In this document: one piece after another, positions 42,450 to 56,774 of the stretch
How the letters are laid out: each line of letters opens with the position of its first letter
Position numbering within the stretch: position 1 is the first letter of the stretch
Made by a program: the position numbers and the translations under genes
Assembly (NCBI RefSeq): GCF_010682065.1
Contig: NZ_JAAGWG010000024.1
Coordinates: 1 to 64,000, forward strand
Direction of reading: 5' to 3'
Length of the DNA stretch: 64,000 nt
Source of the DNA: Blastococcus saxobsidens
Lineage (GTDB): Bacteria > Actinomycetota > Actinomycetes > Mycobacteriales > Geodermatophilaceae
Notes under the pieces: generated by a model
Database searches by the model: none
The model's input: only the letters and a program-made list of their open reading frames with translations
What the model was told of the DNA's origin: nothing

Positions 42450-42557
42450 CCGGTGTGCCGGCCCCACGGGGGACCCGAGCGGCCCGTCACGAGCGAGGCG
42501 CTCCACGTGCACGCCGCTGTCGCCAGACGCTGGACGAGGCCCGGGGTCGGCCGTACG

Positions 42558-42638
42558 TGCGGGAGGGGGGACTCGAACCCCCACGCCCGAAGGCACCAGA
42601 TCCTAAGTCTGGCGTGGCTGCCGTTACACCACTCCCGC
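42558..42638 (-). tRNA. tRNA-Leu (anticodon UAG)
   Basis: Reading the minus strand, acceptor GCGGGAG pairs with CTCCCGC. The anticodon stem is CCAGA/TCTGG with loop CTTAGGA, so anticodon UAG reading CUA/CUG. A long class II variable arm (TGCCTTCGGGCG) is followed by the T arm GGGGG-TTCGAGT-CCCCC. The discriminator base is A and CCA is not encoded. Length 81 nt fits leucine tRNA. Confidence 0.95.
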
Positions 42639-47675: not shown

Positions 47676-48363
47676 CCGCCCCGACCTGACCGGGGAGGAG
47701 CGGGCCCTCCGTCGCGACGCCGTCGGGGAGCTGGGGGAGGCGCTGCGCGCGCTGGTCGACGCCGCCGTCCGCACCGAGGTGCCGCTGGACCGGCTGACCG
47801 AGGCCACCGTCGCGGCCCGCGAACTCACGGCGCTGCTCTCGGCCGACCTGCGCGAGGTGCACGAGATCGCCTCGGTCGACGACCCCGACAGCGGGCAGCG
47901 CTGGTACAGCCCGGTCTACGGGCCGGGCAGCCCGGTGGCCCCGCCGATGGTCGTCGAGGACTTCCCGGACGAGGGTCGGTGCGTCGGCCGCGTGACCGTG
48001 GGCAAGAAGCTCGAGGGACCGCCCGGGCTGGTGCACGGTGGGGTCGTCGCCACGTTGCTGGACCACGTGCTCGCCCGCTCCGCGCGCGGCGCCGGGCACG
48101 GCGGGCTCACCGCCTCCCTGACCGTCACCTACCGGCGGCCGGTGCACCTCGGCGTGCCGCTGGTGGTCACCGGCGAGCTGGTCTCCGTCGAGGGGCGGCG
48201 GGCCACCGCGACCGCCCGGCTCGTCGCCGAGGACGACCCGGAGACCACGCTGGCCGAGGGCGAGGCGCTGCTGATCGCGCTCCGGGCCGAGCGCGCCAGC
48301 GAGGTCTTCGCCCGGACCGGCCGGGTCGTCGGCGCCTGGACGACCCGAACGGGTGAGGACTGA
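47668..48363 (+). CDS. PaaI-type hotdog-fold thioesterase
   Basis: 231 residues. The N-terminal ~85 residues are helical. The hotdog domain has PPGLVHGGVVATLLDHVLARSA, the 4HBT/PaaI signature where a His-Gly-Gly turn precedes the active helix, followed by LTASLTVTYRRPVHLGVPLVVTGEL. It would cleave acyl-CoA or aryl-CoA thioesters. GTG at 47668 overlaps the dehydrogenase stop, suggesting a joint role in acyl-CoA turnover. Confidence 0.9.
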   Translation: MADRPDLTGEERALRRDAVGELGEALRALVDAAVRTEVPLDRLTEATVAARELTALLSADLREVHEIASVDDPDSGQRWYSPVYGPGSPVAPPMVVEDFPDEGRCVGRVTVGKKLEGPPGLVHGGVVATLLDHVLARSARGAGHGGLTASLTVTYRRPVHLGVPLVVTGELVSVEGRRATATARLVAEDDPETTLAEGEALLIALRAERASEVFARTGRVVGAWTTRTGED

Positions 48364-48389
48364 GTCTCGTAACTGAATAGGATCCCTGG

Positions 48390-50864
48390 GTGACCACTGG
48401 CGGACCCGACGAGGCCGATACCTGTCGGGACCACGTGCGGCCGGCCGTGGCCCGTGCGGGATGGGCCGACGACCAGGTCCACGAGCAGTTCCGCGTGCAG
48501 GCTGACCTGCCCGGCGGACGGCTGCCGCCTGCCGACCAGCGCAAGCGGCGTGCGGACTACGTCCTGGAGATCGATCCCGGCGTGCCCCTCGTGGTGATCG
48601 AGGCCAAGCGGCTGTGGGCGCGCCCGGGTGACGGGATCCAGCAGGCGGTCCGGTACGCGGACAGGCTCGGTGCACCACTGGCTCTCTCCACCAACGGCCG
48701 GGGATGGGTGTCGTACAACGCCGTCACCGGCCTGCAGTCGGAGGTAGACGGCGTGCCAACGCCGGTCGAGGCGTGGGATCTGTTGGTGTCCTCACGTCAG
48801 CTCGGCGAGCAGGCCCAGGAGTACCTGCGGTCGCCGTTCAACCGTGAGCACCTCAACGCCGATGGCAGCGTGAAGGAACTCCGCTACTACCAGCGGCGGG
48901 CCATCCACGAGGTCCTGTGCGCGATGGCCGGCGGTCGGCGCCGCCTGCTCCTGGTCATGGCCACCGGATCGGGCAAGACGTTCACCGCTCTCCAGCTGGT
49001 GTGGAAGCTCTGGAACCACCGACGGCGCACGCAGCAGACCACCGGGGAGCGCAACTTCCGGGTCCTGTACCTGGCCGACCGTGACGTCCTGGTCAGCGAT
49101 CCGATGCGCAAGAACTTCCAGCGGGTCTTCGGTGACGCTGTCGTCAGGGTCAGCACCAAGGACGCCCGGCACTCGCCGGACATCTACTTCGCGACCTACC
49201 AGGGATTGACCACGGCCCACCAGGACCCCGACGTCCCTCCTGACGCGTCCGAGGCGCGTGAGCTCCTGCGGAACTATCCGCCGGACTTCTTCGACCTGGT
49301 GATCGTCGACGAGTGCCATCGCGGCAGCGCCCGGGCGAACTCGGAGTGGCGCGGCATCCTCGAGCACTTCGATGCGGCGGTGCAGCTGGGGCTGACCGCG
49401 ACCCCGGTCGACCACGGTGGTGTCGACACTTACGAGTACTTCGGCAACCCGGTCTTCTCCTACAGCCTCAAGAAGGGGATCGAGGACGGCTTCCTCGCCC
49501 CCTACACGATCCGCCGCGTCGTCTTCGACGTCGACGCCGAAGGGCTCGACGTCGTGGATGGCCAGCGGGACAGCCATGGCCAGCTCATCCCGGCGGGGAC
49601 GTACGGCACCCGCGACTACGAGCGGCGCCTCCGGTTGCCGGACCGGACGGCGGCCATGGCGCGGCGGATCGTCGACGTCATCGGCGACACCGAGGACCGC
49701 GCCGTCGTCTTCTGCGTCGACGCCGCGCACGCCCTCACCATGTGCGCGGAGCTGCGCAATCTCCGGCCCGAGCGGACCCGTCGGGACCCGGAATGGGTGG
49801 CTCGGATCATGTCGGCCGAGCGGGAGAAGGACCGGCTGCTGGAGCAGTTCACGGACCCGGAGCGGGACGTGCCCCAGATCGCCGTGACGTCGAGCCTGCT
49901 CTCCACCGGCGTGGACATCGAGGACCTCAAGTACGTGGTCCTCGCCCGGTCGATCGGCTCGATGGCCGAGTTCAAGCAGATCATCGGTCGCGGCACCCGG
50001 CTCTATCCCGAGAAGGGCAAGACGGAGTTCGAGATCATCGACTTCGTCGGCGCCACTGAGCTCTTCCGCGACCCGACGTTCGACGGGCCGCCGCTCCGTG
50101 CGACTGCTACCGAGACGGTCAGCCCGGAAGGCGAGGTCGAGGAGCGTGCCGTCGCATCCTCGGACGTCGGTTCCGAGGGGGAACCGCTGGAGCCGTCGGT
50201 CACCGTCGCCGAGCCCGAGCCGGAGTACCGCGGCGGCGGCTCCTCGGAGGGCGACGAGCCCGAGTCCGGCGAGGCAGCCCCACGGGAGAAGTTCGAGCTG
50301 CGCGGCGTGCCGGTGACGCTGACCAGCGAGGGCTTCTGGGTGCACGACGTGACCACCGGGCGGCCGCGACTGGTGAGTTACGTGGACTGGGCCGGCGAGC
50401 GGGTCCTGGAGCGCTTCGAGGAGCCCGAGGCACTGCTCCGGGCGTGGGCCGATCCGCGCTCCCGGTCGGAGGTGGTGACCTTCCTCGGCACCAACCACAT
50501 CGACCCGGTGCGGTTGGCCGAGGAGTTGAGCCGAGGCGGGGACGGGCAGGTCGACACCGTTGACCAACTCCTGCACCTCGCATGGGGGTTGCCCACCATG
50601 ACGCGAGCCGAGCGGGCGAGGCGGGCCCTTTCCGGCCACCGGGCAGAAATCGACGCCTACCCGGAGCAGGCCCGCGACGTCCTGACCTTGCTCCTGGACC
50701 GGTATGCCGTCGCGGGGATCGACGAGATCGCCGCGCCCTCGGTCGTGCAGGTTCCGCCGCTGTCCGCAGTCGGCTCTCCGGCACAGATCGCGAGCCGGTT
50801 CGGCGGTGCAGAGGCCTGGCACCAGGCGCGAGCCGCCGTCCAGGAGTGGCTGTACACGGCTTGA
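48390..50864 (+). CDS. hsdR: Type I restriction enzyme R subunit
   Basis: 824 residues. The N-terminal PD-(D/E)xK nuclease has Asp56 (RADYVLEI) and Glu71-Ala-Lys73 (VVIEAKRL). The superfamily 2 translocase has Walker A MATGSGKTF (Lys196), DECH (Asp307), LTATPV and the C-terminal motif IGRGTRLYPEKGK. An acidic Glu/Pro-rich linker (~575-635) precedes the C-terminal domain that contacts the methylase. It cuts unmethylated DNA after translocation. GTG at 48390 is six nt past TAGGAT. hsdM and hsdS lie 1.5-3 kb downstream, beyond an inserted abiE pair. Confidence 0.95.
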   Translation: MTTGGPDEADTCRDHVRPAVARAGWADDQVHEQFRVQADLPGGRLPPADQRKRRADYVLEIDPGVPLVVIEAKRLWARPGDGIQQAVRYADRLGAPLALSTNGRGWVSYNAVTGLQSEVDGVPTPVEAWDLLVSSRQLGEQAQEYLRSPFNREHLNADGSVKELRYYQRRAIHEVLCAMAGGRRRLLLVMATGSGKTFTALQLVWKLWNHRRRTQQTTGERNFRVLYLADRDVLVSDPMRKNFQRVFGDAVVRVSTKDARHSPDIYFATYQGLTTAHQDPDVPPDASEARELLRNYPPDFFDLVIVDECHRGSARANSEWRGILEHFDAAVQLGLTATPVDHGGVDTYEYFGNPVFSYSLKKGIEDGFLAPYTIRRVVFDVDAEGLDVVDGQRDSHGQLIPAGTYGTRDYERRLRLPDRTAAMARRIVDVIGDTEDRAVVFCVDAAHALTMCAELRNLRPERTRRDPEWVARIMSAEREKDRLLEQFTDPERDVPQIAVTSSLLSTGVDIEDLKYVVLARSIGSMAEFKQIIGRGTRLYPEKGKTEFEIIDFVGATELFRDPTFDGPPLRATATETVSPEGEVEERAVASSDVGSEGEPLEPSVTVAEPEPEYRGGGSSEGDEPESGEAAPREKFELRGVPVTLTSEGFWVHDVTTGRPRLVSYVDWAGERVLERFEEPEALLRAWADPRSRSEVVTFLGTNHIDPVRLAEELSRGGDGQVDTVDQLLHLAWGLPTMTRAERARRALSGHRAEIDAYPEQARDVLTLLLDRYAVAGIDEIAAPSVVQVPPLSAVGSPAQIASRFGGAEAWHQARAAVQEWLYTA

Positions 50865-50870
50865 ACCGGA

Positions 50871-50915
50871 CGAAACTGTAGTTTCGGTCGAGCGTGGTCC
50901 AGTCAAACTAAAGTT
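50871..50915. promoter_or_regulatory. Paired palindromic operators for the abiE operon
   Basis: The 10-mer AACTNNAGTT occurs twice: AACTGTAGTT at 50874-50883, inside the perfect 16-bp palindrome CGAAACTGTAGTTTCG, and AACTAAAGTT at 50906-50915. Centres are 32 bp apart, three helical turns. They lie about 40 and 72 bp before the abiE start at 50950, where AbiEi antitoxins of other systems bind paired inverted repeats to repress their own operon. The stretch is visibly AT-richer than its surroundings. Confidence 0.7.
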
Positions 50916-50937
50916 CCTATTGAGTTCAGCAGTCCTG

Positions 50938-50943
50938 TAGGGT
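50938..50943 (+). promoter_or_regulatory. -10 element of the abiE operon (leaderless)
   Basis: TAGGGT lies exactly 6 nt before the ATG at 50950, the spacing found at most leaderless genes in this window. The proximal operator sits roughly where a -35 region would be, so a bound repressor would block polymerase. It gives the toxin-antitoxin pair transcription independent of hsdR. Confidence 0.6.
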
Positions 50944-50949
50944 CTTGGC

Positions 50950-51546
50950 ATGTCCGCTCGCCTCGACCTGCGCCGCAGGCTCCACGAGGTCGCGTTTCGG
51001 CAGGCCGGCTACGTCTCGGCCGCGCAGGCGCTCGGGGTCGGGTACAGCTACCAGGCCCAGAAGTACCACGTCGACCGCGGAAACTGGGTGAAGGTCGACC
51101 GTGCCCTGTTCCGGCTCGCCGGGTGGCCGGCTGCTGCCAACGACGGCTACGCCCGGTGGGCGGTGTGGTCCGAGGGGCTGGGTGTCGTCTCCTTCCAGTC
51201 AGCTGCGGATGTGCACGACCTCGGGGAGTTCGATCTCGGGGATGTGCACCTGACCGTTCCGGCGCCTCGGCCGGCGACCCCAGGAGTGGTCCTGCACGTC
51301 GCTGAGCTGGACGACGGCGACATCGACGACCGTGGCTCCTTCCGCGTGACGACCGTGACGCGCACGCTGCTCGATCTGGCGACCACCAGCGTCAGCCAGG
51401 AGCAGCTCAGCTCTGCCGTCGGCGATGCCCTGTCGGCGGGCTCGGCGAGCCGCGGCACCCTGCAGCGCCGGATGGATGCCTTCGGCCCCGCCGCAGCCCT
51501 CCGGCTCGAACGCGCGCTGACCGCGCCGCCCGAGGCCCACGCATGA
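50950..51546 (+). CDS. AbiEi-type antitoxin/autorepressor (type IV TA)
   Basis: 198 residues. The N-terminal winged helix (LRRRLHEVAFRQAGYVSAAQALGVGYSYQAQKYHVDRGNWVKVDRALFRLAGWP) is the AbiEi wHTH. The C-terminal antitoxin domain has the typical VSFQSAADVHDLGEFD and TTVTRTLLDLAT stretches. AbiEi neutralises the AbiEii nucleotidyltransferase without binding it stably, and represses its own promoter. Its stop overlaps the toxin start by 4 nt (ATGA). The tandem palindromes upstream are its likely sites. Confidence 0.88.
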   Translation: MSARLDLRRRLHEVAFRQAGYVSAAQALGVGYSYQAQKYHVDRGNWVKVDRALFRLAGWPAAANDGYARWAVWSEGLGVVSFQSAADVHDLGEFDLGDVHLTVPAPRPATPGVVLHVAELDDGDIDDRGSFRVTTVTRTLLDLATTSVSQEQLSSAVGDALSAGSASRGTLQRRMDAFGPAAALRLERALTAPPEAHA

Positions 51547-52391
51547 CCCCCGCGACACCGGCCGCCATGCGCGCGGCGCTGGAGGCGCGCCTGGTGAACC
51601 AGGCCGCGAGCCTCGGCATCGAGGCGGGCCGTCTTCGGCGGCGGCTGGTCTTCCAGCGGATCGTGCGGCGGCTGTCGGGTGACGACCGCTGGGTTCTCAA
51701 GGGTGGCTACCTCCTGGAGGCGCGCCTGGAGCACCGCGCCCGGACGACCCGGGACCTCGATCTGGCGAGCGCTCTGGCTGCAGGAGTGGAGCCGCTCCGC
51801 GATGCCTTGGCGACCGCCCTCGATCAGGACCCGGAGGGCGACTTCTTCCGGTTCTCCATCACCGGTGCGGCGGCGCTCCGACCTGATGACGCCGGGCAGG
51901 GCGGGTGGCGGTTCAGCGTGGAGGTCCGGATCGCGGGGAGGGTCTTCGACCGCGTGCGGGTCGACGTCGTCGCTCGCGTCGCCGAGACCTCCGGTTCCAC
52001 GGAGCTGATCGACCTGCCGGCACCTGTGGACGGCGTCGACCTCGGGCCGGCGCAGGTGTTGGCCGTCGATGTCGCCCAGCACGCGGCGGAGAAGTTCCAC
52101 GCGATCTGCCGCACCTACGCGGGGAACCGACCCAGCACCCGGGTCAAGGACCTGGTCGACGTGGTGCTGCTCGTCGAGGCCGGGCTCCTACCCGATCCTC
52201 GGCTGCCCGAGCGCCTGCGGATGGTCTTCGCGGCACGGGACGGGCAGGAACCGCCACTGGACCTGCCGGAGCCGCCGGCGTCCTGGGCACGCGACTACGA
52301 AGCGCTCGTCACCGACGTCGGCGCCGCTACCGGAACCCTGCCGGCGGCCATGTCGGTCGCCACCGCGGTGTACCAGCAGGCCCTCGCCTGA
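51543..52391 (+). CDS. AbiEii-type nucleotidyltransferase toxin
   Basis: 282 residues of the AbiEii/AbiGii family. Motif I is WVLKGGYLLEARLEHRARTT with Lys53. The metal-binding motif is TRDLDLA (Asp71, Asp73), and RVDVV further along may give the third acid. The C-terminal motif STRVKDLVDVVLL has Lys202-Asp203. All key positions look intact, so the toxin should be active. Relatives block growth by adding nucleotides to tRNA 3' ends (MenT) or using GTP, and abort phage infection. ATG at 51543 is coupled to the antitoxin; hsdM follows 39 nt later. Confidence 0.9.
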   Translation: MTPATPAAMRAALEARLVNQAASLGIEAGRLRRRLVFQRIVRRLSGDDRWVLKGGYLLEARLEHRARTTRDLDLASALAAGVEPLRDALATALDQDPEGDFFRFSITGAAALRPDDAGQGGWRFSVEVRIAGRVFDRVRVDVVARVAETSGSTELIDLPAPVDGVDLGPAQVLAVDVAQHAAEKFHAICRTYAGNRPSTRVKDLVDVVLLVEAGLLPDPRLPERLRMVFAARDGQEPPLDLPEPPASWARDYEALVTDVGAATGTLPAAMSVATAVYQQALA

Positions 52392-52430
52392 CTCCTCGCC
52401 ACTGCTCGTCCTCCACCAAGAAAGCAGCGC

Positions 52431-53915
52431 ATGCCCGCAGCGAAGCCCACCGCCAGCCTGTCCGCCGTCATCAAGCGGGCCCGTGACGTCATGCGCAAGG
52501 ACGCCGGGCTCAACGGGGACGCCGACCGCATTCCACAGTTCGCCTGGCTGCTCTTCCTGAAGGCCCTCGACGATCTCGACGAGTCCCGCGAGGTGACCGA
52601 CCCTGAGTACCGGCCGGCGCTCGCGTCGCCCTACCGGTGGCGGGACTGGGCAGCGGACTCCACCACCCGCCGCAGCGGTGACGCACTGCTCACGTTCGTC
52701 AACCAGAACCTGCTGCCTCACCTGGCGGGGCTGACCGGCAGTGGCGCAGCGGGCGACACCCGCGAGACGGTGGCCGCGATCTTCCGGGACACGCGGAACC
52801 GGATGCTGTCGGGCTACCTGCTGGCCGACCTCGTCGACGAGGTGAACAAGGTCAGCTTCGTGTCGGCCGACGACGTGCACACCATGGCGCACCTCTACGA
52901 GTCGATGCTCCGGGAGATGCGCGACGCCGCCGGTGACGCGGGCGAGTTCTACACCCCGCGGCCGGTCATCCGGTTCATGGTCAACATGCTGGACCCGCGT
53001 CCGGGCGAGGTGGTGATGGACCCGGCCGCAGGAACCGGCGGCTTCCTGGTGGAGGCCTGGGACCACATGGTTCGGGCAGCCGATGCGTCGGAGACGCCGG
53101 CTCAGCAGCGTGCGGCGCTACGCGGAACCCTGCGCGGGTTCGAGAAGAAGCCCATGCCGTACCTGCTCGGGCAGATGAACCTGCTGCTGCACGAGGTCGA
53201 CTCGCCCCGCATCACTCGGGGCAATGCGCTCACCTTCTCGGCGGCCGATCAGCGCCGCGACGGCGTCGACGTCGTGCTGACCAACCCGCCGTTCGGCGGC
53301 GAGGAAGAGGTCGGGGTCAAGGATTACTTCAAGACCGACTACCGGACGGCGGAGACGTCGTGGCTGTTCCTTCTGTCGGTGATGGAGCGCATCGCCAAGT
53401 CGAAGACCGGACGGGCCGCGATTGTCGTACCCAATGCCGTACTTTTCGACGAGGGAATCGGGGCCCGGATCAAGGCGAGGTTGTTGGAGGAATTCAATCT
53501 GCACACCATCGTGCGTCTCCCTATTGGTACGTTTTCCCCCTACACCCTCATTTCGACCAATATCCTCTTCTTCGAGCGGGGCGGTCCGACGAGGAGCATC
53601 TGGTTCTACGAGCATCCGCTGCCGCAACGGCGTAGGAGCTACACCAAGACCAAGCCGCTGCGCTACGAGGAGTTGGCGGATTGTGAGGCGTGGTGGGGTA
53701 GTGACGGCCGAGTTCACCGTGTCGAGACGTCGAACGCTTGGAACGTCCCCGTGACAGACCTCAACAACTTCGACCTTGACCTACACAGTCCGAACCGACC
53801 AGACGATCTTGCCCATCGACCACCTGTCGAGTTGATCGCCGAGCTGATCGACACGGAGACGCAGATCCTCGGTCTGCTGGAGCGGATGCAAGCTGAGATG
53901 GCGGGCCGGCAGTGA
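52431..53915 (+). CDS. hsdM: Type I restriction-modification methylase subunit M
   Basis: 494 residues. The N-terminal HsdM helical domain has DADRIPQFAWLLFLKALDDL. Then come GEFYTPRPVIRFMV, SAM motif I MDPAAGTGGFLVEA (Asp197) and catalytic NPPFGG (Asn285), giving N6-adenine methylation. The end VTDLNNFDLDLHSPN and a helix EIDTETQILGLLERMQAE-like stretch contact HsdS. ATG at 52431 has an AAGAAAG-like site. Codons in 53400-53700 are noticeably less GC-ending than the neighbours, a sign of acquisition. hsdS overlaps by 4 nt (GTGA). Confidence 0.95.
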   Translation: MPAAKPTASLSAVIKRARDVMRKDAGLNGDADRIPQFAWLLFLKALDDLDESREVTDPEYRPALASPYRWRDWAADSTTRRSGDALLTFVNQNLLPHLAGLTGSGAAGDTRETVAAIFRDTRNRMLSGYLLADLVDEVNKVSFVSADDVHTMAHLYESMLREMRDAAGDAGEFYTPRPVIRFMVNMLDPRPGEVVMDPAAGTGGFLVEAWDHMVRAADASETPAQQRAALRGTLRGFEKKPMPYLLGQMNLLLHEVDSPRITRGNALTFSAADQRRDGVDVVLTNPPFGGEEEVGVKDYFKTDYRTAETSWLFLLSVMERIAKSKTGRAAIVVPNAVLFDEGIGARIKARLLEEFNLHTIVRLPIGTFSPYTLISTNILFFERGGPTRSIWFYEHPLPQRRRSYTKTKPLRYEELADCEAWWGSDGRVHRVETSNAWNVPVTDLNNFDLDLHSPNRPDDLAHRPPVELIAELIDTETQILGLLERMQAEMAGRQ

Positions 53916-54493
53916 CCGTCCGGCACGTTCGCGTGGGGGACGTGCTCCGGCTGGAGCGGACGAAGATCACTCCTGACCCGGCGGCGGCGTATCGCCAGAT
54001 CGGTGTCTACTCGTGGGGCAAGGGAATCATTGAGAACGAGGCGATCCCCGGTGCGGAGCTGAGCAAGGTCACCTACTACCGTTTCCCGCCCAACGCTTTG
54101 ATCCTGAGCAACATCCAGGCATGGGAGGCGGCGATCGCCGTATCGACCGAGCGTCAGGCGGAGGAGTTCATAGCCTCACAGAGATTTCTTCCGTACGTGC
54201 CGATCCGTGAAGGTGAAGTCGAGGCTCGCTACCTGCTGCACTTCTTCTTGAGTGATCCCGGGATGGTGCTCATTCGCAAGGCGTCGCCTGGCACGGTTAC
54301 CCGTAACCGCACCTTGGGCATGAAGGCGTTCGAGGACCTTGTGGTTCCTTTGCCAGATGTCACTGCCCAAAGCGTGATGGTTGGCCGATTGGATCAACTG
54401 GCGGACATCGCCACGTTGATCGAGCGCCAACGCGCGGTCGCTGTGGCGCTACCTCAGGCGGCACGGAACGAGATCTTTTCGAAGCTTGTCTGA
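53912..54493 (+). CDS. hsdS: Half-size specificity subunit S of the type I system
   Basis: 193 residues, about half the usual ~400, with one target-recognition domain (~1-150: YRQIGVYSWGKGIIENEAIPG, YYRFPPNALILSNIQAWEAAIAV, LIRKASPGTVTRNRTLGMKAFEDLVVPLP) and one terminal coiled helix (RLDQLADIATLIERQRAVAVALPQAARNEIF). A single TRD with one conserved helix can dimerise and would then read a palindromic bipartite site. It ends in a proper stop and is not visibly truncated. GTG at 53912 overlaps hsdM. Lower GC than the flanks. Confidence 0.85.
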   Translation: MTVRHVRVGDVLRLERTKITPDPAAAYRQIGVYSWGKGIIENEAIPGAELSKVTYYRFPPNALILSNIQAWEAAIAVSTERQAEEFIASQRFLPYVPIREGEVEARYLLHFFLSDPGMVLIRKASPGTVTRNRTLGMKAFEDLVVPLPDVTAQSVMVGRLDQLADIATLIERQRAVAVALPQAARNEIFSKLV

Positions 54494-54499
54494 CGCGGC

Positions 54500-55165
54500 T
54501 CAGATCGCACGCCAGTGGTCGCCGGCGACGATGAGGTGGTCGAGGAAGCGCAGCCCGCACGCCTCGGCGGCGGCGCGTACCTGAGCCGTCGCCGTGCGGT
54601 CGGCAGGGCTCGGTTCCAGCGATCCACCGGGATGGTTGTGCGCCAGGGCGAACGCCTGGCCGCCTCGGGTGAGCACTGCCCGCAGCACGTCACCGACCGG
54701 GGCGGCGGCGTGCGCCGTCGTCCCTTCGGCAATCGGAACTACGTCCACCACGCGCAGGCGCCTGTCCAGCACGGCAACCATCATCCGTTCGCGCTGCCGG
54801 TCCTGCAGGTGCGGCAGCACCGCCGCCGCCACACCCGCCGAGCCGGACACCCCCGACGCGGGCTCGGTGAGGGCGGCCCGGCGGCGCAGCTCTGTCGCAG
54901 CCGCGATGCGGGCCGATGCCGCCGGGCCGAGCCCCCGGATGCGCTCGATCTCCTGCACGGTCGTGGTGGCCAGCCCGGCGACTCCGCCCGTCGACGCGAT
55001 GAGCCGGTGCGCGAGATCGATCGCGTTGTGCTCGCGATTCCCGGCGCCGATGAGGATGGCCACCACCTCGGCGTCCGTCAGCGCGTCCGGGCCGAGCCTC
55101 CGGAGGCGTTCCCGCGGGCGCTGCTCCACCGGCAGATCGGTGATGCGCATCGGTCGGCGGGGCAC
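54500..55165 (-). CDS. radC: RadC/JAB-domain protein
   Basis: 221 residues. An N-terminal HhH-like helical region has LTDAEVVAILIGAGNREHNAIDLAHRLI. The C-terminal RadC/JAB metal site is ALAHNHPGGSLEPSPADRTAT. RadC's role is unsettled; the family is widespread in genomic and defence islands. GTG at 55165 is six nt past TAGCCT, a clean leaderless start. It is convergent with hsdS, with 6 nt between the stop codons. Confidence 0.92.
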   Translation of the reverse strand: MPRRPMRITDLPVEQRPRERLRRLGPDALTDAEVVAILIGAGNREHNAIDLAHRLIASTGGVAGLATTTVQEIERIRGLGPAASARIAAATELRRRAALTEPASGVSGSAGVAAAVLPHLQDRQRERMMVAVLDRRLRVVDVVPIAEGTTAHAAAPVGDVLRAVLTRGGQAFALAHNHPGGSLEPSPADRTATAQVRAAAEACGLRFLDHLIVAGDHWRAI

Positions 55166-55245
55166 CAGCCGAGGCTAGTGAGACGCCTGACTGGTCGATG
55201 CCCCTCGGTCGGATCTGTGGACAGCTGGAGGAGAGGATGTGCTGC

Positions 55246-55593
55246 ATGGGGACAGGACCGCCGCCGGAACTCGAAGTCGCCCGTGTCGAGCGGTGGTGCC
55301 GGGAGCAGGTGCCCGCTGCCGTCCGGGACGCGCTCCGCATCGAGTGCGAGATCTCCGGCCGTGACAACACCATCGTCGAGCGACGGCCACCGTGGAACGG
55401 TCAGTCCCGGGGGGAGTGGATGAGCACCCCGGTGGCTCGGCTCCGCCATCTGAAGTCGCGGAGCATCTGGCGGCTCTACTGGCGCGGCAGAGACGGACGC
55501 TGGCGTGAGTGCCCCTCGCTGCCGTATGCCGCGTCGGTGGATCAACTCCTGGAGGAGCTCGAACGCGACCAGGATGCGCTCTTCTGGGGCTGA
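55246..55593 (+). CDS. DUF3024 protein
   Basis: 115 residues: LEVARVERWCREQVPAAVRDALRIECEISGRDNTIVERRPPW, then WMSTPVARLRHLKSRSIWRLYWRGRDGRWREC and a final ELERDQDALFWG, matching DUF3024. No function is known; it is a small alpha-beta protein with many Trp/Arg. ATG at 55246 has a GGAGAGG site at proper spacing; the ATG at 55237 is too close to it. Confidence 0.85.
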   Translation: MGTGPPPELEVARVERWCREQVPAAVRDALRIECEISGRDNTIVERRPPWNGQSRGEWMSTPVARLRHLKSRSIWRLYWRGRDGRWRECPSLPYAASVDQLLEELERDQDALFWG

Positions 55594-55655
55594 CAACTCT
55601 GCTGGACAGCCGAACGCCATGACCCGCCCTGCTCGGCAGCGCGCCGGACAGGTCC

Positions 55656-56774
55656 CTAGTTGGCGCGCGGGCCCGGGGCGTTCGCGACGTCGCCGGCCGG
55701 GTCCAGCGTCGGCCCGCCCGCCGGGCGGAGCAGCGGTCCCGGCGCGCCCACGCCGTCGCCCAGGGCGGCGACGAACTGGCGGAGCACCTCGTCGCCACGG
55801 TGGAACGGCGCCCAGTCCAGCAGCTTGCGGGCACGGGTGGTGTCCAGCGCCGGCACCTGGGTGCCGATGTCCAGCCACCCCGGCTCGGTGGGCACGACGT
55901 GCGCGGCGTGCGCGGCGGCCAGGCCGGCCCGCAGCAGCAGCGCGGGGGTGGGCACCCGGAAGGTCCCGAGCGCGCGGGCCAGCGCGTCGGCGTCCATCAG
56001 CGGTTCGGCGGCGAGGTTGAACGGGCCGGGAGCCCGCCGGTCGATCATCCGCTCGATCGCGTCGGCGACGTCGTCGGCGTGCACGAAGGAGATCGCCAGC
56101 GCCGGCAGCGGGAGGGGCAGCATCCTGGCCACCGGACCGGGAAGCATCCGTGCCGCCCCGAAGAGCAGCGGGCCGAGGAAGTAGCGGCCGATCTCGCTGC
56201 TGGCCTCCGGCTGCAGCACCAGCGTGGGCCGGACGACGGTCAGCGCGGTGTCGCGGTGGCGGCCGAACACCCCGCGCACGACCTGCTCGGCGGCGGACTT
56301 GTCCCGGCTGTACTGGGCGCTGGGGATGCCGGTGGTGGGCCAGTCCTCGGTCACCCGGTGCCCGCGGGCTCCACCGGCGTAGGCGCCGATCGAGCTCATG
56401 TGCACGAACTGGTCGACCCCGGCCGCGGCAGCCGCCCGGGCGACCCGGCGGGTGCCCTCGACGTTGACCTCGTGCAGCGCCTCGGGGTGCCGGCCCGGCT
56501 GGAGTGCCCAGGCCAGGTGGACGACGGCGTCGGCGCCGTCGACGAACTCGGCCACCTCCCGTTCGCTGGCCGCCTCGCCGAGGTCGGCGAGGTGCCAGCG
56601 CACTCCCTCGTAGGGCGCGACCGCCGGCGGGCGACGGCGGGCCAGTCCGCGGACCTCCGCCACGCCGGCCTTCGGGTCGGTCAGCCGGCGCAGCAGCGCG
56701 GTACCGACGTTGCCGCTGGCGCCGGTGACGGCGACCGTCTTGCCGGCGAGGTGACCGGGGGAGAAGTTCGGCAT
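55656..56774 (-). CDS. NAD-dependent epimerase/dehydratase family (extended SDR)
   Basis: 372 residues. The nucleotide motif is VAVTGASGNVGTALL; AVVHLAWAL and the catalytic pair in SAQYSRDKSAAE (Tyr-x3-Lys) follow SSIGAYAGG. Substrate binding residues around GPFNLAAEPLM are as in atypical SDRs. The Pro/Gly-rich last 40 residues are probably disordered. The reaction (sugar nucleotide, steroid or lactone) cannot be read. ATG at 56774; TAGCGG at the usual distance is a poor -10. Confidence 0.9.
   Translation of the reverse strand: MPNFSPGHLAGKTVAVTGASGNVGTALLRRLTDPKAGVAEVRGLARRRPPAVAPYEGVRWHLADLGEAASEREVAEFVDGADAVVHLAWALQPGRHPEALHEVNVEGTRRVARAAAAAGVDQFVHMSSIGAYAGGARGHRVTEDWPTTGIPSAQYSRDKSAAEQVVRGVFGRHRDTALTVVRPTLVLQPEASSEIGRYFLGPLLFGAARMLPGPVARMLPLPLPALAISFVHADDVADAIERMIDRRAPGPFNLAAEPLMDADALARALGTFRVPTPALLLRAGLAAAHAAHVVPTEPGWLDIGTQVPALDTTRARKLLDWAPFHRGDEVLRQFVAALGDGVGAPGPLLRPAGGPTLDPAGDVANAPGPRAN

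Follow-up and report, generated by a model that had tools for sequence, protein, structure and literature searches.

AbiE toxin–antitoxin genes nested in actinobacterial type I restriction–modification operons, with the antitoxin as a probable controller of the methylase

A 64,000-nucleotide stretch of the genome of Blastococcus saxobsidens (contig NZ_JAAGWG010000024.1, positions 1 to 64,000; the window) carries a type I restriction–modification (RM) operon with an AbiE toxin–antitoxin (TA) pair inside it, in the order hsdR, abiEi, abiEii, hsdM, hsdS on one strand (Table 1). Two phage defences appear to be fused here into one inherited unit, in which the antitoxin AbiEi, a presumed autorepressor, probably also controls the modification genes that follow it, as judged from the sequences of the locus and its relatives. 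The gene order and the 4-nt overlap of abiEi and abiEii had been read from the letters of the window alone (the original prediction), and both are confirmed, the former by profile matches of all five products. HsdR, HsdM and HsdS make up a type I system of the EcoAI/FtnUII (type IB) family, recognised by NCBIfam for HsdR and by Pfam and PADLOC for the other two subunits. This is the only AbiEii copy found in the source genome, which is 91% complete.

The nested order recurs far beyond the window. A survey of 84,980 species genomes with the toxin as bait found 112 relatives, the best 80 loci of which were kept, and genes in these loci were called with hidden Markov models (HMMs) built from those same loci. 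In 39 of the best 80, hsdM lies directly 3′ of abiEii, a count that is no frequency, since the toxin itself served to draw the loci. All five genes are in order on one strand in 35 of the 80, and the remaining four nested loci lack hsdR or hsdS through a contig end (L081, L089), a fusion (L076) or loss (L099). The nested loci belong to 12 named families, all of them actinobacterial, and include nine loci without a family, one of which is labelled Acidobacteria. In 396 sampled genomes of the phylum, the order hsdR-abiEi-abiEii-hsdM occurs in five genomes from five families among the 30 best toxin loci. A fairer count comes from using HsdM as bait in that sample and in an overlapping one of 394 genomes of the class, with three candidates scored per genome and the best 30 loci of the phylum sample inspected. 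Twelve systems fall in the HsdM clade of the window, of which 10 carry AbiE with the five genes in order and two lack it; some of the AbiE-bearing genomes are the same as named loci of the toxin survey (four pairs of identical HsdM rows).

In a tree of 60 HsdM rows, from which 17 distant ones were left out, all 49 AbiE-bearing rows sit in a single clade (support 98/95) together with two rows that lack the pair, and the nine rows outside the clade are all AbiE-free. Three changes suffice to account for the presence of AbiE on this tree, and one gain followed by two losses would be its simplest reading. What fits best is a single insertion of AbiE between the restriction and methylase genes and a prolonged joint inheritance thereafter. 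Wherever the hsdR end of a sister or outgroup system can be seen, hsdR adjoins hsdM and no AbiE is present. Pairwise distances among 34 systems (omitting L106, L121, L075, L089, L081 and L099) correlate for hsdM with abiEi (r 0.82), abiEii (0.73) and hsdR (0.89); none of 2000 permutations gave a value as high, and all four tested genes agree. Across nine pairs, the ratio of non-synonymous to synonymous substitution rates (dN/dS) is 0.05–0.20 for abiEi, 0.17–0.32 for abiEii, 0.07–0.18 for hsdR and 0.06–0.19 for hsdM, that is, purifying selection.

That the pair got into its slot by chance, or was carried along in a defence island without any selected link, might be argued from the small HNH-endonuclease-like frame, recognised by eye, which fills the hsdR–hsdM gap of two sister-clade systems (L037 and L148), and from the 41 of 80 genome loci that show no hsdM next to the pair. 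A chance neighbourhood is largely refuted by the recurrence, the one-clade HsdM tree and the distance congruence; the low dN/dS of both AbiE genes, well below 1, also stands against it. This explanation is very improbable.

The DNA in front of the genes suggests how the operon may be read. In actinobacteria, TAnnnT sites 6 nt before the start codon mark leaderless promoters. Such a site lies at exactly this distance upstream of abiEi in 29 of 38 nested loci, of hsdR in 16 of 37 and of hsdM in none of 38. Starts were set for 38 abiEi, 38 hsdM and 37 hsdR genes, and for only 14 hsdS and 8 abiEii; they come from the HMM alignment and not from the −10 site, and some look mis-set (e.g., L065, L071, L073). 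In all but one of 37 loci the hsdR–abiEi gap measures 54–103 nt; L075 departs from this owing to a split hsdR. Two inverted 9-mers in the gap of the window, ACTGTAGTT and AACTAAAGT, form a putative AbiEi operator, and no second place in the source genome fits this two-site pattern. Of 38 nested loci, 27 have AACTAAAGT, with one mismatch at most, in the last 110 nt upstream of abiEi, where 0.1 loci would be expected from the loci's background of 0.026 per kb; shuffled nested stretches gave a mean of 0.9 loci and a maximum of 4. Before hsdR it occurs once in 37 loci, and before hsdM in none of 38. From the toxin stop to the hsdM start, 36 of 38 loci range between an overlap of 53 nt and a gap of 7 nt (exceptions: L083, −313, and L091, +49). 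Because −10-like and operator-like sites precede abiEi and none precede hsdM, and because the junction of toxin and methylase is tight, transcription of hsdM and hsdS would most likely start at the AbiEi promoter; read-through from hsdR is also possible. A general sigma-70 scan of 48200–55800 found no promoter, and the promoter case therefore rests on the −10-like sites that line up among relatives.

The AbiEi protein of the window has no Pfam match itself, and its sequence found nothing relevant among solved structures. The AbiEi_4 model is matched by 27 of 30 aligned AbiEi sequences, and a fold search with the structural model (predicted local distance difference test, pLDDT, 93) returned S. 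agalactiae AbiEi (6y8q) as the best fold at a template modelling (TM) score of 0.63. With an N-terminal winged helix and a gene upstream of the toxin, the protein has the features of an AbiE antitoxin, as indicated by PADLOC, by the AbiEi_4 matches of its relatives and by the fold. S. agalactiae AbiEi and Rv2827c are described as repressing their own promoters through inverted repeats, and for Rv1044 no binding to its own promoter is described as having been seen (PMC7319586). On account of this autorepression in two tested members of the family, combined with the operator and −10 anatomy, the explanation that we consider fairly likely is that AbiEi controls the methylase and specificity genes in a two-promoter arrangement. 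An antitoxin that would repress its own operon probably governs the modification genes along with it.

Several observations weigh against this explanation. Two genomes within the HsdM clade, G573 and G675, do without AbiE, so the pair is dispensable; hsdM is also split in G675, and hsdS and radC are not recognised in G573. The pair stands without an hsdM of this family alongside in 41 of 80 genome loci, where "lone" means that no such hsdM was recognised and a few of the contigs end near the pair (e.g., L085, L114, L132). Lone and nested copies are intermixed in the AbiEii tree, which calls for 17 changes, no fewer than 10 of them forced by strong branches (L106, L121 and L129 omitted for split frames), and the pair is thus not sealed into the operon. 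The motif AACTAAAGT was read by eye in the same gaps in which it was then counted, which makes the count a description of these loci and no independent test; the motif is lacking at one mismatch or fewer in 11 of 38 nested loci. It also precedes 16 of the 22 lone pairs in L061–L121, which include one Chloroflexia locus (L120), and 5 of 17 in L122–L141, which are mostly from other phyla and include one actinobacterial locus (L129). The motif is therefore a property of the pair itself, and any control of hsdM might simply follow from where the gene lies. The 39-nt spacing of abiEii and hsdM in the window is looser than in 37 of 38 relatives, and a simple scan of 48200–55800 found no terminator, so that read-through from hsdR is possible. 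The original prediction had proposed functional nesting and had taken the presence of the pair at many unrelated sites in relatives as speaking against it. The proposal holds as far as recurrence in 12 actinobacterial families and the single clade of AbiE-bearing HsdM are concerned, and the objection also applies in part, through the lone loci and their interleaving with nested ones.

Where AbiE is absent, in the hsdR–hsdM gap of L147 (G573), a perfect 12-bp inverted repeat and a TAGGAT hexamer are seen by eye, and hsdM looks as if it had acquired a promoter of its own. Near the lone abiE loci, no remnants of hsd genes were found at E 1e-3. Plasmids and phages were considered as a home for the pair and rejected, with two weak matches in 72,556 plasmid records, none in 50,697 phage records and one weak viral-contig relative. 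Other neighbours were seen in metagenome-assembled genomes (MAGs). In a Phycisphaerales MAG (L125, 1126–7840) the AbiE pair lies directly 3′ of a type III mod-res pair, a separate link of AbiE with another RM type, and in a Chthoniobacteraceae MAG (L123, 6218–14256) a SNF2/NO VEIN helicase gene and a GmrSD gene are located downstream of it. Three further MAGs (L112–L114) have, upstream of the pair, a ResIII-HNH protein, which was typed in L112, and a protein of 685–689 aa, which in L112 has no Pfam match. The locus L062, from a MAG labelled Jatrophihabitans, has the acyl-CoA dehydrogenase–thioesterase flank of Geodermatophilaceae loci, and its label may be a binning error.

In AbiEii, the only domain found by Pfam is that of the toxin family. 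Residues K53-G54-G55, D71, D73, E183-K184, R200, D203 and D206 are invariant in 23 aligned sequences and D141 is nearly so. We take these to be the catalytic motifs, following the family and in line with the MenT3 alignment, and the earlier statement that the toxin's motifs look intact is borne out by these columns. The closest solved fold is MenT3 (Rv1045) of M. tuberculosis (TM score 0.81–0.83). T69 of the window protein aligns with S78 of MenT3, the phosphorylation of which is described as silencing that toxin (PMC11375011). By homology with MenT3, tRNA is the likely target of AbiEii (PMC11541572). The toxin frame is broken in three of 39 nested loci (L099, L106, L121) and the abiEi frame in none of the 38 that are uncut by a contig end, which fits a regulator that is needed even without its toxin, with numbers too few for significance.

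These broken frames also bear on whether the toxin guards the RM system as PrrC does, staying silent beside an intact restriction complex and being released when a phage inhibits HsdR, HsdM or HsdS or when the complex is lost. The fixed place within the operon and the co-inheritance speak for such a guardian, as does L099, a MAG in which hsdR is gone except for a weak C-terminal match and the toxin frame is split too; PrrC and PARIS are described precedents (PMC12707154). On the other side, the toxin comes with its own antitoxin, no further domain was found in it, its nearest homologues also occur outside type I RM operons, and profile scans of the embedded proteins gave matches to AbiEi and AbiEii but to no anticodon nuclease of the PrrC/RloC type. 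Moreover, L106 and L121 have a broken toxin beside open restriction, methylase and specificity frames, and L075 has an internal stop in hsdR beside an open toxin, these being single genomes or MAGs in which sequencing error is possible. We know of no contact between AbiEii and RM proteins. A guardian of this kind, as put forward in the original prediction, finds little specific backing and is unlikely; the layout of the locus speaks in the first place for a transcriptional coupling of the antitoxin with hsdM and hsdS.

In the scheme of control by AbiEi, in which we infer promoter use, AbiEi binding, repression, two transcripts, the tRNA target and any phage trigger, hsdR would be transcribed from its own leaderless promoter, and a second one, beside the operator half-sites, would drive abiEi-abiEii-hsdM-hsdS. 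By repressing this second promoter, AbiEi would set the doses of antitoxin, toxin, methylase and specificity subunit through one protein and independently of the nuclease. In a newly entered cell free of AbiEi, a burst of methylase and antitoxin would precede repression and protect the host DNA. In an infected cell with falling AbiEi, the promoter would fire again, and AbiEii, as a MenT-like tRNA nucleotidyltransferase, would halt translation; if the unit were lost, the toxin would be left unopposed.

The specificity subunit of the window is unusual in having 193 aa and a single target-recognition domain, not two. An alignment with L061 and L106 shows its first recognition domain running straight into the second conserved tail, and the distance from the hsdM stop to the hsdS stop is 578 nt, as opposed to 1117–1181 nt for the full-length genes of 35 out of 37 relatives measured (L104, cut by a contig end, and L099, with 950 nt, make up the rest). 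Half HsdS subunits that pair are known, and by analogy with these it is possible that the half-size HsdS is active. A second halved specificity subunit in this family of systems is found in Streptomyces olivaceoviridis (L076, 7765–9963), where an in-frame fusion joins hsdM to a half HsdS of one domain, with hsdR, abiE and radC retained.

The convergent radC gene follows hsdS in most nested loci and is absent in seven of 39, three of which are contig ends (L083, L089, L104). It was seen beside AbiE in none of 42 lone loci and at none of 11 AbiE-free systems, three of which (L163, L166, L173) are too short to show it. The hsdS and radC stops are at most 30 nt apart in 27 of 31 measured loci and 1.3–1.8 kb apart in four. 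Among the systems found with HsdM as bait, blind to AbiE, seven of 10 have radC, and G289, G409 and G508 lack it within 4 kb. Within the family of the window, RadC (E ≤0.001) is confined to three of 57 genomes, and the HsdM of this system (E ≤1e-60) to the same three. A wider proposal, which we put forward tentatively and hold to be somewhat less than an even prospect, is that hsdR-abiEi-abiEii-hsdM-hsdS-radC would be a single integrated defence of the Actinomycetota, in which the antitoxin controls a type I methyltransferase, represses hsdM and hsdS at steady state, is relieved on entry or infection and ties the loss of modification to a tRNA-targeted arrest, with RadC as a dedicated partner.

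Table 1. Genes, predicted control sites and island limits in the window
Feature	Coordinates	Strand	Remarks
Putative leaderless −10 (TAGGAT) of hsdR	48378-48383	+	6 nt before GTG start; TAnnnT at same spacing in 16/37 relatives
hsdR, type I restriction subunit	48390-50864	+	824 aa; EcoAI/FtnUII family, EcoEI_R_C domain; NCBIfam 727 bits, cut-off 550
Putative AbiEi operator	50875-50914	+	inverted 9-mers ACTGTAGTT (50875-50883) and AACTAAAGT (50906-50914), 31 bp apart
Putative leaderless −10 (TAGGGT) of abiEi	50938-50943	+	6 nt before ATG; presumed promoter of abiEi-abiEii-hsdM-hsdS
abiEi, winged-helix antitoxin, presumed autorepressor	50950-51546	+	198 aa; PADLOC AbiEi 8.6e-52
abiEii, nucleotidyltransferase toxin	51543-52391	+	282 aa; Pfam AbiEii 2.9e-26
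hsdM, type I adenine methyltransferase	52431-53915	+	494 aa; N6_Mtase 3e-57
hsdS, half-size specificity subunit	53912-54493	+	193 aa; Methylase_S 3.3e-05
radC (JAB domain), convergent with hsdS	54500-55165	-	sixth partner in 32/39 related loci
DUF3024 gene (PADLOC PDC-S43), within island	55198-55593	+	matched in 5/81 related loci: L062, L064, L065, L067, L106
Island	48343-55654 by G808; 48348-55663 by G807		stretch missing between two aligned flanks in same-genus genomes

Two genomes of the same genus, G807 and G808, have an empty island site, at which the flanks of the window (~48,343 and ~55,655) stand ~15–20 bp apart, and the interval is filled by seven genes: the five of the operon, radC and the DUF3024 gene. 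Profile scans of the seven products gave no match to an integrase. At the same chromosomal site, three other genomes of the genus (L175, L176, L177) have ~1.5 kb of different sequence, and a tRNA-Leu gene is located at 42557–42638, ~5.7 kb upstream of the island and away from its edge. The clean empty site, together with the presence of this HsdM in only three of 57 genomes of the family, would suit a pair that merely keeps a mobile restriction island in the cell by addiction, unconnected in function with the expression of HsdM and HsdS, and AbiE is described as stabilising plasmids (PMC3985639). Addiction has no need of a slot between hsdR and hsdM, of a toxin–methylase junction of a few nucleotides or of an hsdM devoid of its own −10-like site, and still all three are near constant. 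The earlier suggestion that the pair might serve only to stabilise the island leaves the fixed slot unexplained, although addiction is compatible with the rest, and as a sole explanation it is rather unlikely.

TA pairs inside type I RM operons are already known. The AbiE case would be new as far as the titles and abstract openings listed by full-text searches of open-licence papers go, none of which reports the pair in such an operon. As the joint unit is widely conserved and its promoter and operator sites can be predicted, the questions of delayed cutting and of the role of the TA pair become testable in cultured Streptomyces, for instance in the carrier Streptomyces griseofuscus DSM 40191 (L087). 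The unit bears on how type I systems hold back cutting until the host is methylated, and on embedded TA pairs as passengers, guards or regulators. Tools that count AbiE and type I RM separately would miss the joint unit.

Among known systems, the RptR-HsdMSR-DarTG2-M48 island of enteropathogenic Escherichia coli is described as having a TA pair embedded in a type I RM operon (PMC12255303), and it shares with the window the embedded pair and a repressor of the operon promoter, a role which is predicted for AbiEi. DarTG2 is described as sitting between hsdS and hsdR with a separate small repressor protein (RptR), whereas the pair of the window is AbiE, lies between hsdR and hsdM, and its antitoxin would itself be the repressor. 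PrrC is described as an anticodon nuclease activated when Stp of phage T4 inhibits EcoPrrI (PMC12707154); the likeness consists in a translation-targeting suicide enzyme within a type I RM locus, the target of AbiEii being assigned by homology, and the difference in AbiEii being a nucleotidyltransferase with its own antitoxin. The TgvAB system, described in a type I RM cluster of Vibrio VPI-2, is likewise a second defence inside type I RM genes, but it is a GmrSD-like pair and not a TA system (PMC12409362). With AbiEi/AbiEii of S. agalactiae and MenA/MenT of M. tuberculosis, as these are described, the pair of the window shares the folds, the two-gene order and the inverted repeats before the antitoxin gene (PMC3985639, PMC7319586, PMC11541572, PMC11375011); in contrast to these two-gene operons, it continues into hsdM and hsdS, which have no −10-like site of their own.

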